Shown here in pieces: positions 4,083-55,288 of a stretch of 64,000 nt of DNA. Under the pieces are notes generated by a model. It ran no database searches. It was not told where the DNA came from and saw nothing but the letters and a program-made list of their open reading frames with translations. Made by a program: the position numbers and the translations under genes. The DNA is from an uncultured Collinsella sp. (GTDB taxonomy: Bacteria; Actinomycetota; Coriobacteriia; Coriobacteriales; Coriobacteriaceae): positions 1-64,000 of the forward strand of contig UQKL01000015.1 of the NCBI GenBank assembly GCA_900541695.1. Direction: 5' to 3'. The first letter of the stretch is position 1. Each line of letters starts with the position of its first letter.

Positions 4083-4186
4083 GAAAATCCGAATCTTATG
4101 CATCCGAAAATCCGAATCCTTAGAACAGGAAAATCCGAATTATATGAACACGAAAATCCGAATCGCAACCACCCGAAAATCCGAAT
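4083..4186. repeat. Five direct repeats of a 12-mer with exact 23-bp period
   Basis: GAAAATCCGAAT occurs five times without mismatch, starting at 4083, 4106, 4129, 4152 and 4175. The 11-base spacers are not conserved. The array ends 59 bp before the start codon of the AAA/DUF4143 ATPase gene, where a promoter or operator would be expected. Confidence 0.95.
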
Positions 4187-4245
4187 TTGCTACAGTGGAA
4201 TAGAAGAATTAGAAAGCAGGAACTGGAAATCTGCGGGGGTGGCTC

Positions 4246-8751: not shown

Positions 8752-11700
8752 ATGAGAACGGCAAAGCGCATAACAACCGCATGCCTGACTGCGATCATGA
8801 TTTTCCAGGCGCTCGCGCCTTCCACAGAGGTGTTCGCGCAAGAGCTCGACGCCGTTATAGAGGCGTCCGTCTCCGCCGCGCGCGCCGCGGGCAATACTGC
8901 CCGCTCCGTACAGGATGCCGTGGCCACCTCGCTGCAAGATGCTGACCAGGCTGCATCTGATGATGCCGCGACGACTCCGGGCGCCGATGCGGGCGCCACC
9001 GAGGGCGGCGACGGTTCTACCAACGCTGGCGAATCGCAGGACTCCACGACCGATGGAACCACTAACGGCGATACCCCAACGGAGGGCGACGCATCCCAAG
9101 ACGATGCGGCTGCCGATGAGGGCGCCGCCGACGAAGATCAGGCGGATGACGCGGACACAGATGCGGCTGCGCAGGCTAGCACCGACCCCGCCATCAAGAC
9201 CGCTGGTGAGCTTGATGGCGCGCTGGTCGACGGCAAGGTCACCGTGAACGACGCTGGCGAGGTCACGGCCATCACCTTCGGATCCAACGCCGACCTTATC
9301 GCCATCTCCAACACCGACCCCGCCATCTACCAGAACGCGAGCATCTCCAAGACCGGCTTGAGCGGCGTCGACTTCGACGTGTGCAGCGCGCAGGCCGTGG
9401 GCGACCTGGGCAATCTCGCGTTCCAGGGGTTCGGCAGCGATGCCCACCCCTTCAAGGGTACGCTCGACCTGGGCGGCAGGTTCCTTACCGCCAACAAGAC
9501 GCTCTTCAACAACATCGAGCTCAACGATAACAACGGCACCGTAAAGCTCACCTGGAAGGGCACCGATGCTCAGCCCATCGTGGCCGCAAAGGTCACGGGC
9601 GCGGGCAAGACGCTCAGCGCTGCCATTACCGTAGACAAGCCCGAGAGCGGCGATACGAGCGTCGTCAAGCTCACTTCGCCGCTCGTGGGTGAGGTTACGG
9701 GCGAGCTCACGCTTGACGCCACGTATTCGACAAGCGCGAATAGCCCCCTGGCGATTGGCATGCAATCGTCCACGGGCAATCTGGGCCTACTCGCGAACAC
9801 CCTTACTGCAGGCGCATCTCTTACGATTGCGGGGCTGAATGGCCTGCCGAAGAGCTTCAACGGCACCCCCACCATCGATGCTACGGGCGCTGGTGCCAAT
9901 GCCGGCGGCCTTATTGGCGAGGCAGGCGAGGGGGCTGCCGTCACCCTTGCTTCGAATGTCGATGTTTCGGCACTGAGCGTCGCGGGTAATAATGCGGCGG
10001 GCGGCCTTATCGGTAAGGCGACCAGGCTTACGCTTGCCGTAGATACGGACAACAGCGGAAAAGATGCCTCGGGCAAGGATATCAGTATCAAGCCAGCGCA
10101 CTCGGTTGGGTCGTCATCAGCCGGTACGTATGCCGGCGGCCTTATCGGTGACGCCTCGTTTGCCAGCGATTTCACTATCGAGAATGGCACCTTCGATTTT
10201 GGCGAGGGCGTGGCGCTCAGTGTGGCCAACACGACCGCCGCCCCCTCTGTCGGTGGCCTGTTCGGCGTGCTCGACATCTCGAACGGCGATGTGACCGTAA
10301 ACGGCGGATTGTATAAAAGCACGCTGCAAAACGGCGCGGACAACAGCAACAACAACGGCGTGCGCGGGAACTACGGCGGCTTGGTGGGCAAGCTGTGGGG
10401 CCAGAAATACGGCGACGCACTGCACGCGTTCACGGTGAAGGGTGGCGCTGAGGTGTCGTTTGGCGTGGGCTCTAACGGCAAGCTCGCGTATGCGGGCGGC
10501 CTGGTAGGCTACCTTGGTGAAGGCGGCGGGAGCGACAATGTGTCCGCCGTGGTCATCAGTGGCGCAGCGGTGACGTGTGCAACCTCGGGCTACGCCAGCA
10601 ACAACGGCAAATACGGCGGCGCCGTGGGCGTCGTGGACACCAAAAACGTGCTGGAAGTGCGCGGCCTAACGGTCAAAACCGCCAGCGGCGCTACCATCGG
10701 CGGCACAAACGGCGGCTTTGCCGGAGTCGTTGGGTCGTCGTGGCTCGGCATCGTCAAGTTCAGCGGTATCACCGACCTGTCGGATGCCGCCTTCGTGGAA
10801 AATGATCACACCGCGCAGCTGATTTATGAGAACTTCAATTCACTGATTTTTGCTGCCGGTAGCGGAAGCGACAGAGGTGCCACCGTAGGCGGTACCACGG
10901 AATGGCAATACAAGCGTCCCTCTAAGCCGGTCAAGATCGATGACATCTACAGCTACGGCCAGGTTATTCGCCTGGGTGATAGTTTTATTACGCTGAACCC
11001 GACGACACACGAGCTGACTCTACCGGCACCGTTGGAACTGACTAACGGCGTCTATGCTCTAGCCTCGCTTGAGGATTTCGCCAAGCTTGCGATTACCTGG
11101 CAAACCAACGGCTACTACTCAATGGTCGAAGGCGTTACCGAAAACAATCTGAATGGTTTAAAGTCCTCGACCATTACGGTGAACGGCACAATTGACCTCA
11201 AGGGTACAGGCCTGACGGGCTTCACTCAGGACCGCGCAAACGACTCGCAAGTTTTCTCGGGTACGTTGAACGGCGGCGGCACGATCAAGCTTGCTGTCGG
11301 TGAGCCTTACGGCATGCGCGGGAACGCCCCTCTGGGCGCCGACGACATCAGTGCCGGCAACGGAAAAATCTACCGTCACGGCCGCCTGGGCTTGTTCGCA
11401 GCAATCAACGGCGCAGCCGCCAACAGCGAGACTGTCTCCAACGTCACCATCGCTGGCTCCATGAGGTTCGATAACGGCTCGGCAATCGAGGCTGGATCGC
11501 TTGCGGGCGCCATTGCGGGTGGTCTGACGCTGTCTGGCGCAACGTGCGAAACGAATATCGCATGCGATGATACGTTCACCAACGATGTGAACATTGGTGG
11601 TATTGCAGGCAGCGTGTCGGCAGCTTCTACGGTTACGTTTAGGGACAGTAGCAAGGCTCAAGCGAGCATCACTGCAACTAAAACGCTTAATGGCAACAGC

Positions 11701-19519: not shown

Positions 19520-19554
19520 CTTGTTCGCTTGGCCTACTGCTGCCCCAGCTCTCC

Positions 19555-19652
19555 ACCAACTTTCCAGCTGTCCACTTAACTTACCACTCAAGGTGGAAAG
19601 CTGGAAAGTTAAGTGGAAAGCTGGTAAGTTAGGTGGAAAGTTGGAAAGTTGG
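19555..19652. repeat. Upstream repeat block of the AlbA_2 gene (20-bp period)
   Basis: Three direct copies of GTGGAAAGCTGGAAAGTTAA-type repeats start at 19593, 19613 and 19633, an exact 20-bp period. Inverted copies lie at 19555-19590, so the block as a whole is an imperfect inverted repeat. The last copy runs into the GGGAGG ribosome binding site of the gene at 19663. About 65 bp of this block recur almost unchanged downstream of the gene (21169-21238). Confidence 0.9.
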
Positions 19653-19662
19653 GAGGTTCGGC

Positions 19663-21132: not shown

Positions 21133-21163
21133 GGCTGTCCGTCGCCCATGCTTCGGTCTCCCA

Positions 21164-21260
21164 ACTTCTTTCCAGCTTTCCACTTAACTTACCACTTAAG
21201 GTGGAAAGCTGGAAAGTTAAGTGGAAAGTTGGGAAGCAAGTGGAAAGCTGACATGTTAGG
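21164..21260. repeat. Downstream repeat block of the AlbA_2 gene
   Basis: This block is near-identical to the one upstream of the same gene. It shares the inverted segment CCACTTAACTTACCACT, and GTGGAAAGCTGGAAAGTTAA occurs at 21201-21220. Degraded copies start at 21221 and 21240. It begins about 30 bp after the stop codon. Confidence 0.9.
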
Positions 21261-21515
21261 TGCGGACTGACGAGGGGTTAATAATTGCACAAACCATACC
21301 AGCTAAACAAAAAGATACCAATCTGGTTGGTAAAACACCGTCAATGAGCCGCGAGCCAACTAGCTGCGTAAATAAAACCTAAAGAACTGTTGCAAATGAA
21401 TGGCAAATACCCAGATGCCGCCGTTGCGATTTTCAATTAACTGTTACGCGGGAACAGCAAAATGCTACTATCTAACTTGCACGTAAGAAAGCAGATTAAC
21501 GGTTAAGGCTAAGAA
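21261..21515. other. AT-rich intergenic region before the HTH gene
   Basis: Together with the repeat block this is a 383-bp gene-free stretch. It is visibly more AT-rich than its surroundings and contains a small dyad, ACCAA-TCTGG-TTGGT, near 21338. A weak promoter-like pair (GTTACG and TACTAT, 17 bp apart) lies near 21443-21471. Nothing else is recognisable. Confidence 0.35.
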
Positions 21516-27413: not shown

Positions 27414-27755
27414 ATGAGTTTACTGACATTTGCCAAGACGGCCTTGGGTTCTATGGTCAAGCGGCCGGTCACGGTGTGCTATCCGCAGGAGAAGCTCGCG
27501 GCGCCCGAGCGCCTGCGCGGGCATATCGTCAATGACATGGACGTGTGCATCTGCTGCGGCATGTGCGCGCGGCGTTGCCCGGCGGGCGCGCTCGCGGTCG
27601 ATCGCAAAGGCGGCACCTGGTCGATCGATCCGTATGCCTGCGTGGTGTGCGGCGAGTGCATCGAGAGCTGTCCCAAGCGCTGCCTGACTATAGATACAGC
27701 CCGCACTCCGGTCGCAGCGGACAAGACTCCCACGGTAGAAACCAAACCGGAATAG
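27414..27755 (+). CDS. Ech hydrogenase ferredoxin-like subunit EchF (NuoI-like)
   Basis: This 113-residue 2x[4Fe-4S] protein carries CICCGMCARRCP (about residues 44-55) and CVVCGECIESCP (about 75-86), the two cluster motifs of NuoI/HycF-type subunits. It takes electrons from a soluble donor, probably ferredoxin, and hands them to EchC. It is the last gene of the operon, 7 bp after echE, and is followed by a long GC-rich hairpin. Confidence 0.92.
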   Translation: MSLLTFAKTALGSMVKRPVTVCYPQEKLAAPERLRGHIVNDMDVCICCGMCARRCPAGALAVDRKGGTWSIDPYACVVCGECIESCPKRCLTIDTARTPVAADKTPTVETKPE

Positions 27756-27776
27756 AGCTGGAATAGAGCTGGAATA

Positions 27777-27810
27777 GGGGCCGGTGGGGCAAAAATGCCC
27801 CACCGGCCCC
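27777..27810 (+). terminator. GC-rich hairpin at the end of the ech operon
   Basis: Fifteen bases (27777-27791) pair perfectly with 27796-27810 around an AAAA loop. No T-run follows, so if it is a terminator it is a non-canonical one; it may instead protect the 3' end. Two and a half copies of GAATAGAGCTG precede it. Confidence 0.55.
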
Positions 27811-27837
27811 GCGCTTAAACGCGCGGTTGGGCCGCCG

Positions 27838-28372
27838 CGAACAAAACTATGCCGGATTACGGGGCTGGATTGCGAATCCCCAACCATACAGAAAATCGCA
27901 AAAATAAAACCGCAGGTAGATAGCCTGCCGTTTTTCAAAAAATGAATGTATGGATGAGGGCCCCGACTTTAGCCCCGTAATCCGGCATAGTTTTGAAATG
28001 GCACCATATCCGTAACAGCCTTTAATCTCCCGTGGACGGAGAAAAACGGACCATTTTGGCCTTGCGAGGGCTGCCGCGTGACCCGTCTGCCACGAAATGG
28101 GCCCATCTACTACGTTTAAGCCGCTACCCTCAACCATGGCGAAAAACGCAAAAACAAAACTGCAGGTAGAACGCCTGCGGTTTTTCATGAAAAGCGGTTA
28201 TGGTCGAGGGTGCTGGACTAAACGTAGTAGATGGGCCCATTTCGTGGCAGACGCCGTCAGCCGATCTCCGCGGGCGGAAGAAAAAGGATCATTTCGGTCC
28301 CGCGAGGCTTGCGGAGGCACTCGTGCAGGCTCGCCCGAACAAAACTATGTCGGAGTGTCGACAGTTGGGTAA
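27838..28372. repeat. Tandem units (~250 bp) of nested inverted-repeat elements
   Basis: Unit 1 has 25-bp perfect arms (27842-27866 with 27971-27995). Unit 2 has 35-bp perfect arms (28084-28118 with 28219-28253). The arm sequences of the two units are unrelated, but the centres are about 90 percent alike over 46 bases (27891-27936 and 28141-28186, offset exactly 250). They hold a hairpin, AAAAC-N-GCAGG...CCTGC-N-GTTTTT, that looks like an intrinsic terminator. A 60-bp flank is also shared (from 28025 and 28264). The opening CGAACAAAACTATGCCGGA (27838) recurs with one change at 28336, in register for a third, truncated unit. The block fills the 617 bp between the convergent ech and response-regulator operons. 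Confidence 0.9.
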
Positions 28373-29002
28373 TTACCCTCGCAGGTACGCAATGGCGATT
28401 TGCGTACGGTTGCGAAGCCCCATTTTGGCCAGAATCGAGCTGATGTGGTTGCGTACGGTGCCTTCGCCCATGTAGGCCGTGGCGGCAATCTCCTTGTTGT
28501 CGAGGCCGCGGGCGATGAGCTCTGCGACTTCGAACTCGCGGTCGGTCAGGCTGGCAAAGGCGGTGGGCCGGCGGAGCGTGCCCGCCTCAACGCCCGTTCC
28601 GTCAAAGTCGATATCCTCGATCGCCTTACCCTCGAGCACGCGCTTGCCACTCATGACCTGCGCCAACGCCGGAGGAATGGCGGCGACATCGGTTTTAATC
28701 AGGTAGCCGCGGGCGCCCAGTTTGAGCGCCGACACAATGTACTCGTCGTCCGAGAATGTCGTCAGGAACACCACGCGCGCCGCAGGGTCGTGCTCGAGGA
28801 TCTCGCGCGCCGCCGATAGGCCGTCGCGTCCCGGCATCTGAATGTCGAGCAGCGCGATGTCGGGCGCGTGCTCGGCGTAGAGCGCGACCGCGTCGTCGCC
28901 GTTGGCGCCGGTGCCCACTACCTCGATCTGCGTCTGGGCACCCAGGATAATCTTGAGCGAATCGACCACTAGGCGGTCGTCGTCGACAACGATGAGCCTC
29001 AT
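28373..29002 (-). CDS. NarL/LuxR-family response regulator
   Basis: This 209-residue DNA-binding regulator has a receiver domain with acidic pocket VDDD (residues 6-9), phosphoacceptor D53 (LLDIQMPG), and the conserved T and K (VFLTTFSDD, GYLIK). A LuxR-type helix-turn-helix at the C-terminus has LTDREFEVAELIARGLDNKEIA and GTVRNHISSILAKMG. Its start overlaps the end of the kinase gene by 4 bp (ATGA), so the pair is co-translated. The divergent ABC-2 exporter operon is the obvious candidate target. Confidence 0.93.
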   Translation of the reverse strand: MRLIVVDDDRLVVDSLKIILGAQTQIEVVGTGANGDDAVALYAEHAPDIALLDIQMPGRDGLSAAREILEHDPAARVVFLTTFSDDEYIVSALKLGARGYLIKTDVAAIPPALAQVMSGKRVLEGKAIEDIDFDGTGVEAGTLRRPTAFASLTDREFEVAELIARGLDNKEIAATAYMGEGTVRNHISSILAKMGLRNRTQIAIAYLRG

Positions 29003-55129: not shown

Positions 55130-55139
55130 AATCTTCTGT

Positions 55140-55275
55140 CTCGATCTGTAACATCTAGCGGGCTAAATTGTCTCTACCTGTTACAGATTTAGACAAACTG
55201 CAGGGGGCCGCCCGAAAATCTCGATCTGTAACACCAGGCCCGGTTTTGGTTGCCTAACTGTTACAGATCGAGACA
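55140..55275. repeat. Two-unit copy of the 80-bp-period inverted-repeat array
   Basis: ATCTGTAACA starts at 55144 and 55224, and TGTTACAGAT at 55179 and 55259. The period is exactly 80 and the left-to-right distance 35, as in the six-unit array at 1357-1815. The array begins about 10 bp after the DUF4867 stop and fills the first part of a 345-bp gene-free stretch. Confidence 0.9.
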
Positions 55276-55288
55276 AGCCGGTCCCAAA

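Follow-up and report, generated by a model that had tools for sequence, protein, structure and literature searches.

We analysed a 64-kb stretch of Collinsella DNA (hereafter the window) in which a ferredoxin-type gene and a LuxR-type response regulator gene converge on an intergenic region containing two inverted-repeat units and the stump of a third (Table 1). The ferredoxin-type gene adjoins a complex-I 49-kDa/hydrogenase-like gene (Pfam Complex1_49kDa, 1.1e-47). As stated in the original prediction, both units carry long perfect arms, of 25 bp in unit 1 and 35 bp in unit 2; these arms sit in larger inverted repeats of 49 nt (80% identical) and 54 nt (89% identical), respectively. The cores were delimited by nhmmer at 27879-27956 in unit 1 (E 1.2e-18) and 28129-28206 in unit 2 (E 7.7e-21). 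Their predicted 250-bp spacing was confirmed as an 83-nt direct repeat of 77% identity, with starts at 27878 and 28128, exactly 250 bp apart. The predicted third unit start at 28336 likewise proved to be the stump of a real unit: it is 95% identical over 19 nt to the sequence starting at 27838, the response regulator gene ends just past it, at 28373, and, at the position of the stump, the orthologs L141 and L075 have a complete unit of the A' subtype (described below) in the opposite orientation. The GGACGGAG..CGGAYCATTTT module of the first linker was found again beside some other copies of the family described below.

Table 1. Coordinates of the features at the locus (window positions) and of the surface-protein gene in three relatives (locus positions).
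Feature	Position	Strand	Remarks
Intergenic region	27756-28372		between two convergent genes; holds units 1 and 2 and the third-unit stump
Left neighbour, 4Fe-4S ferredoxin-type protein	27414..27755	+	Pfam Fer4_10 3e-09
Unit 1, subtype A, + orientation	27838..27999	+	arms CAAAACTATGCCGG-ATTACGGGGCT; core motif AAAACCGCAGGTAGA
Unit 1 left arm, 25 bp perfect	27842..27866	+
Unit 1 central motif AAAACCGCAGGTAGA and apical terminator-like hairpin	27906..27935	+	terminator-like on both strands
Unit 1 right arm, 25 bp perfect	27971..27995	-
Linker, units 1 to 2	28000..28081	.	has GGACGGAG..CGGAYCATTTT module
Unit 2, subtype B, + orientation	28082..28255	+	arms GCCACGAAATGGGCCCATCTACTACGTTTA; left part B1-like, right part B2-like
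Unit 2 left arm, 35 bp perfect	28084..28118	+
Unit 2 central motif AAAACTGCAGGTAGA (one change from the family motif) and apical hairpin	28156..28185	+
Unit 2 right arm, 35 bp perfect	28219..28253	-
Linker, unit 2 to third-unit stump	28256..28335	.
Third-unit stump, outer arm only	28336..28354	-
Right neighbour, convergent LuxR-type response regulator	28373..29002	-	Pfam Response_reg 1.6e-24, GerE 1.3e-15
Large surface-protein gene in block	G015 L261:2658-9956; G040 L262:2383-8952; G049 L263:2382-8288

Other repeats occur elsewhere in the window. Another palindromic family, TCTCGATCTGTAACA...TGTTACAGATCGAGA, lies at 1354-1821, as an array with an 80-bp period, and at 55137-55281; a palindromic repeat on GGAAAGCTGGAAAG forms two clusters 1.6 kb apart (19553-19655 and 21161-21262); and tandem 23-bp units with a constant GAAAATCCGAAT and variable ends lie at 4083-4197.

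BLAST with the intergenic region matched the nearest genome 34 times. Of 39 relatives, 13 had matches, each of them one of the 24 that belong to the genus. A profile of the core, used with stricter filters that lose weak matches, was positive in 23 of 43 genus genomes, at 4-20 copies each, and in 13 of 149 genomes across the order, representing 1 of 77 sampled genera. Scanning named genomes with a pattern returned 106 stretches; among the 80 of these that were listed, all but one (Rhodococcus) came from Collinsella or from bins named Coriobacteriales or Coriobacteriaceae. Because most of the resulting 8-kb loci were selected for containing ACCAY-N18-AAAACCGCAGGTAGA without mismatch, they overstate how well the centre, and the spacing between it and ACCAY, are conserved. 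A profile search of all collected sequences produced 289 matches, reduced to 172 copies by dropping those with less than 80 bp of flank and repeats of one sequence. These 172 are distinct sequences, many of them orthologous to one another, and a few of the weakest (e.g. L069 and L149, the latter from a Coriobacteriaceae bin) lack the family arms and may be chance matches. Arm anchors were present on both sides in 168 of the 172 copies, the elements are taken as non-coding from their intergenic position, and those with an arm distance of exactly 124 bp are dispersed over 56 clusters. Gene context was at most weakly biased, with 8 convergent, 11 tandem, 1 divergent and 1 mixed arrangement and 4 contig edges among 25 locus groups, compared with 60/109/40 for background gaps delimited by a home-made gene caller that misses some genes. 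Viral contigs gave no match to the core pattern and one to the arm pattern: the metagenomic viral contig L264 carries a single A'-type element at 9943-10018. Judged from titles and the openings of abstracts, a full-text literature search found no description of this repeat family. Collinsella aerofaciens and its relatives are common human gut bacteria, and the family is an annotation target in Collinsella genomes.

The element is ~165 bp long; inside the arms lie a second inverted repeat, GACCAT/ATGGTC, and the directional centre AAAACCGCAGGTAGA. Arm anchors, measured in 168 copies after exclusion of the 4 of 172 that are unanchored, were 124 bp apart in 153 copies, 123 in 10, 125 in 4 and 127 in 1. 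The 33 B copies, chosen at exactly 124, aligned gap-free over 156 columns; copies at other distances were also dropped from the 27-cluster conservation analysis, the 56-representative tip count and the comparison of interiors described below. The fixed arm distance persists although non-orthologous interiors are only ~60% identical (median 0.60, 95th percentile 0.74), compared with a median of 0.89 for orthologs. Among 64 copies compared within their own fetched locus, a measure of paralog identity that refers to the locus and not to the genome, no pair exceeded 69% other than two B elements at L143 (929-1084 and 1869-2024), which lie ~940 bp apart and are 97% identical. Inside the element, the conserved parts are ACCAT/ATGGT and AAAACCGCAGGTAGA. 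Across 27 ortholog clusters, conservation was 0.950 for the left arm, 0.932 for the right arm and 0.982 for the motif. Because the exact-motif scan inflates the centre, we checked conservation with BLAST-found copies. In 9 clusters free of exact-motif selection, values were 0.955 for the motif, 0.951 for the left arm, 0.909 for the right arm and 0.935 for ACCAT, and 0.80 for the spacer, 0.76 for the A-rich stretch and 0.79 and 0.70 just outside the element. The exact 15-mer motif was present in 40, and GCAGGTAGA in 48, of 62 copies from the window or from BLAST-found loci. Comparison of aligned orthologs shows the arms and the centre to be conserved above the spacers and flanks.

The arms belong to three subtypes: CAAAACTATGCCGG-WTTACGGGGCT (A), CAAAACTATGCCGG-TTTACTACGATGA (A') and GCCACGAAATGGGCC-CATCTACTACGTTTAA (B). 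The outer part of the A' arm is common to A and the inner part is B-like. Both arms were of one subtype in 153 of 172 copies, and mixed arms occur in L004 and L192; fuzzy-match calling gives a few B copies the wrong label A/B. It had been claimed that the arms of units 1 and 2 have no sequence in common. That impression was an artefact of comparing two copies: because A' is intermediate and L004 and L192 have mixed arms, the two arm pairs of the window are the ends of one series. Independent perfect arms in each copy are likewise not supported, since there are only three subtypes and an arm pairs almost as well with that of another copy. In 157 unique arm pairs, scored at 25 arm positions, 87.6% of positions pair between a copy's own arms, 85.8% when the opposite arm is taken from another copy of that subtype and 63.8% when it comes from a random copy.

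We looked for paired changes in the arms of orthologous copies; whether arms always pair while varying had been put forward as a test. The 592 arm positions x clusters with a paired majority yielded 94 one-sided variants (31 left-only, 63 right-only), together with two-sided variants of which 5 were unpaired and 11 still paired; 9 of these 11 came from two clusters in which the whole unit had been swapped to another subtype. The 33 B copies had 11 doubly changed pairs, compared with 10.3 +/- 1.6 in shuffles, and 87.3% of their cells were paired, compared with 86.8% in shuffles (32 of 500 reached the observed value). Cross-copy pairing comes close to own-arm pairing, few double changes keep the pair, and doubly changed pairs do not outnumber those in shuffles. 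The two explanations originally offered, selection for pairing and renewal of one arm from the other, are therefore not supported; the repeated design with constrained arms stands. We conclude that the arms are probably kept mainly as sequence, with pairing largely following from dyad symmetry. A reading built on two copies with unrelated perfect arms dissolves when ~170 copies are compared, and the identification of the window units as copies of a dispersed non-coding Collinsella repeat family, constrained in sequence and with arms that pairing does not explain, is much firmer than the functional step considered below.

An alternative that we regard as doubtful is that the element is a structured RNA or bidirectional intrinsic terminator, in which the stem and the GCAGG/CCTGC-U5 tip would work at the transcript level, in termination or RNase III processing, and selection would maintain pairing. 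Both units are predicted to fold very stably on both strands, with z scores against dinucleotide shuffles of -10.1 and -9.5 for unit 1 (27845-27992) and -19.7 and -14.4 for unit 2 (28082-28255), the latter becoming -5.8 and -5.0 when the outer left arm is removed. Unit 1 has predicted terminator-like sites on both strands and unit 2 on the - strand; the region has 6, compared with 1.4 +/- 1.2 in shuffles. The central stem is 88% paired in the 33 B copies, and pair 14-143 of alignment A2, from which the hybrids L192 and L004 were left out, is CG in 14 copies, UA in 11 and UG in 5. The covariation score of the 33 B copies (0.112, compared with 0.102 in shuffles) was reached by only 18 of 500 shuffles, which speaks against a reading in terms of sequence only. 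Sense wobbles in the arms slightly outnumber antisense wobbles, 116 to 87, an asymmetry that we set aside as too small and too non-independent to serve as evidence. Against transcript-level pairing, doubly changed pairs in B copies do not exceed shuffles, few double changes in orthologs stay paired outside unit swaps, and among tandem genes the core faces either way equally often (27 copies each); stem covariation as expected of a structured RNA was found neither in the 33 B copies relative to shuffles nor in the ortholog clusters.

A GCAGG/CCTGC hairpin had been proposed as part of a shared core, but it was not conserved as a pair in the first 25 copies. Their consensus fold of the core kept only 3 pairs, which means that the family as a whole does not share a terminator-like core structure. 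Nevertheless, the apical stem was intact in 37 of 56 locus representatives, and the stem plus T4 in 34; the tip was tested in the 52 representatives with GCAGGTAGA, and the 22 for which a full tip was not shown include the other 4, which lack GCAGGTAGA. With the tip intact in only 34 of 56 representatives, terminator activity is not family-defining, but many copies, those in the window included, may have it. The only match above the gathering threshold in an Rfam scan of the 64-kb window was a tRNA outside the locus; the best sub-threshold match was MIR2599 (E 3e-06, 40 bits of the 120 needed). The claim that no named RNA or mobile element has this design agrees with the Rfam scan but is not supported for mobile elements, since the Correia repeats of Neisseria have a similar design.

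We next consider exchange between units. At the LuxR-side site, with the same flanks, we observed subtype A in the + orientation (9 distinct copies), A in the - orientation (1 copy, L182 in G020) and A' in the - orientation (8 copies). The interior of L182 is 98% identical to that of L153, and its flanks are unchanged. Orientation was mixed in 3 of 24 ortholog clusters: at this site and in two others, where the unit in the opposite orientation is of another subtype. For one of these two (L171/L003) the evidence from the flanks is weak. Because the subtype differs, the mixed-orientation copies other than L182 are replacements rather than flips. As judged from these alignments, renewal replaces arms and core jointly, as one complete unit. 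It is improbable that the element is an inverton, in which a recombinase flips the interior between the arms and thereby changes transcription: L182 is one clean inversion between species at an orthologous site, and a review refers to inversion in Correia elements, but mixed orientation is limited to those few clusters, where subtype replacement accounts for the copies beyond L182, and no sigma-70-like promoter was found in the window region.

In relatives, a 6-8 kb block lies between the element sites, the order being A-B-[7.7 kb]-B-A in G015, A-[7.0 kb]-B-A' in G040 and A-[6.4 kb]-B-A in G049. The tandem 250-bp arrangement in the window is therefore real but not a plain duplication. In each genome the block contains one long reading frame with the same start, of 2432 (G015), 2189 (G040) and 1968 aa (G049), and the G040 protein contains a VWA domain and 11 FctA (pilin-like) stretches. 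This large surface-protein gene is absent between the element sites in the window. The window, G001 and G008 each have a single B unit, whose left part resembles B1 and whose right part resembles B2. In the window, the first two 40-base bins matched B1 of G015 at 36/40 and 36/40 and B2 at 16/38 and 13/40, the right-flank bin matched B2 of G015 at 38/40 and B1 at 25/40, and the next bin matched B2 of G040 at 38/40. These matches show the window B unit to be, in sequence, a hybrid of the two B units that flank the surface-protein block in relatives, as expected from recombination between two B units. We infer that B-B recombination brought about loss or gain of the surface-protein gene, in one direction or the other. 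The family would offer a recombination site beside a large surface-protein gene.

We searched for traces of mobility. No constant flanking repeat indicative of a target-site duplication was found with 32 A and 39 B representatives (the best B offset falls inside the arms), and none of the three presence/absence loci examined had a clean junction; at the best of them, ~230 bp were gained or lost, exceeding the element length. Of the genomes aligned at the L008 locus, 3 have the element and the other 11 lack it, with imprecise edges; 1 genome was not placed. Exact arm patterns, which degenerate ends escape, revealed no transposase-bearing copy in the well-assembled genomes G008, G015, G040 and G049. 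In these four genomes 26 of 31 A-type arm matches pair, spanning 147-148 bp; the other 5 stand alone, though some of them probably have a partner with mismatches, and two were left aside. Only 6 of 16 B-type matches are in exact pairs, a low share that partly reflects the frequent departure of right arms from the pattern. Extra DNA lies beside the L004 element in G015, G008, G020, G011 and G003, and the inserts in G008 and G020, read by eye, carry another gene. The G015 insert (L255:1263-2597) encodes a Mutator-family (IS256-like) transposase (Pfam 6e-99) and was rejected as a partner: the hairpin is interrupted and 8 bases are shared at the junctions, so this insertion sequence hit the element.

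Slightly less probable than an inverton is an array of the REP/REPIN type, mobilised by a RAYT (IS200-like Y1 transposase). Collinsella genomes hold several divergent Y1_Tnp genes, at least two of them bordered by other palindromes, and the window linkers carry a GGGGACGGAG module of similar look. The two are the RAYT-like genes at L273:2515-3567 and L278:1746-3805, each with its own GTCCC-type palindromes of 33-54 bp. However, none of 11 divergent Y1 genes examined in five genomes was bordered by A or B elements in the core-profile search, the nearest being 2.3 kb away; 10 of the 11 were also searched by arm motifs within 900 bp, and 7 Y1 genes closer to consensus were left out. Moreover, the ~165-bp elements are not the 20-40 bp hairpins, with a GTAG or CGTC tag at one end, by which REP/REPIN sequences are defined in the source consulted. 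The least probable alternative is that hairpin-templated repair keeps each copy's own arms identical while arm sequences drift freely, for which the perfect arms of both window units, two same-type double changes that are still paired (L135, L181) and the 1.8-point excess of own pairing over same-type swaps can be cited, but that excess is small, the one-sided variants in orthologs are uncorrected and the arm subtypes are so few.

The reading that we favour, with a probability of roughly 0.6, is that the family is an old Correia-type (MITE-like) Collinsella repeat that was spread by transposition and is now retained as a protein-binding dyad. The family would have spread long ago within part of the genus, a date suggested by the finding that 95% of non-orthologous pairs are <74% identical, and would no longer be visibly moving. 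Elements would now be kept as spaced, putative protein-binding DNA dyads and, where the central hairpin is intact, would probably also provide a two-way transcript end. Similar units would recombine, with the effect of swapping or flipping units and of joining or deleting the genes between them. A bound DNA dyad is the candidate function suggested by elements that have been retained with constrained sequence and fixed spacing; this step, with a two-way transcript end as a plausible extra role, is tentative. It is less likely again that the element has a clade-specific architectural or boundary role, with a dedicated Collinsella protein binding arms 124 bp apart with three exchangeable specificities. 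If so, selection would keep sites in place across species, and unit-for-unit exchange would change the specificity at a given gene boundary. The family would be a test case for whether old MITE-like repeats turn into retained DNA sites, as its arms and centre stay conserved where spacers have drifted and signs of compensatory change are few.

The family can be compared with several known systems, as described in excerpts of the background literature (PMC8040213, PMC7771070, PMC12306157, PMC2649163, PMC10969869, PMC3733652, PMC2229807). Like the bacterial MITEs ERIC, RUP and YPAL, the Collinsella elements are <200 bp long with inverted repeats, and their transcripts would form long stems; unlike them, they have no detected parent insertion sequence with matching ends and no detected target duplication, and their centre is conserved and their spacing nearly fixed. 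Similarity to BIME/REPIN mosaics lies in palindromes joined by shared linkers, in intergenic arrays and in a host clade with RAYT-like genes, whereas the Collinsella units are larger, end in GCCACG or CAAAACTATG with no terminal GTAG, and border none of the RAYT genes examined. As in the BOX/RUP/SPRITE clusters of Streptococcus pneumoniae, different small repeats are bunched together, but the organism is unrelated and the likeness is one of description. BOX elements have a modular structure, and such modularity was not seen in the Collinsella family. The Correia repeat enclosed elements (CREE/NEMIS) of Neisseria differ in sequence and genus, in TA target duplication and promoters (neither found, respectively, in the Collinsella family and the window copies), and in number, with >100 copies compared with 4-20 per Collinsella genome; the Collinsella copies are old and retained, and of one length class. 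In design, however, the two agree: according to the descriptions available, Correia elements are likewise short non-coding repeats (with a class of 153-157 bp) with inverted ends, a conserved directional core and alternative ends, symmetric or not, and are suggested recombination hot spots with reported inversion.
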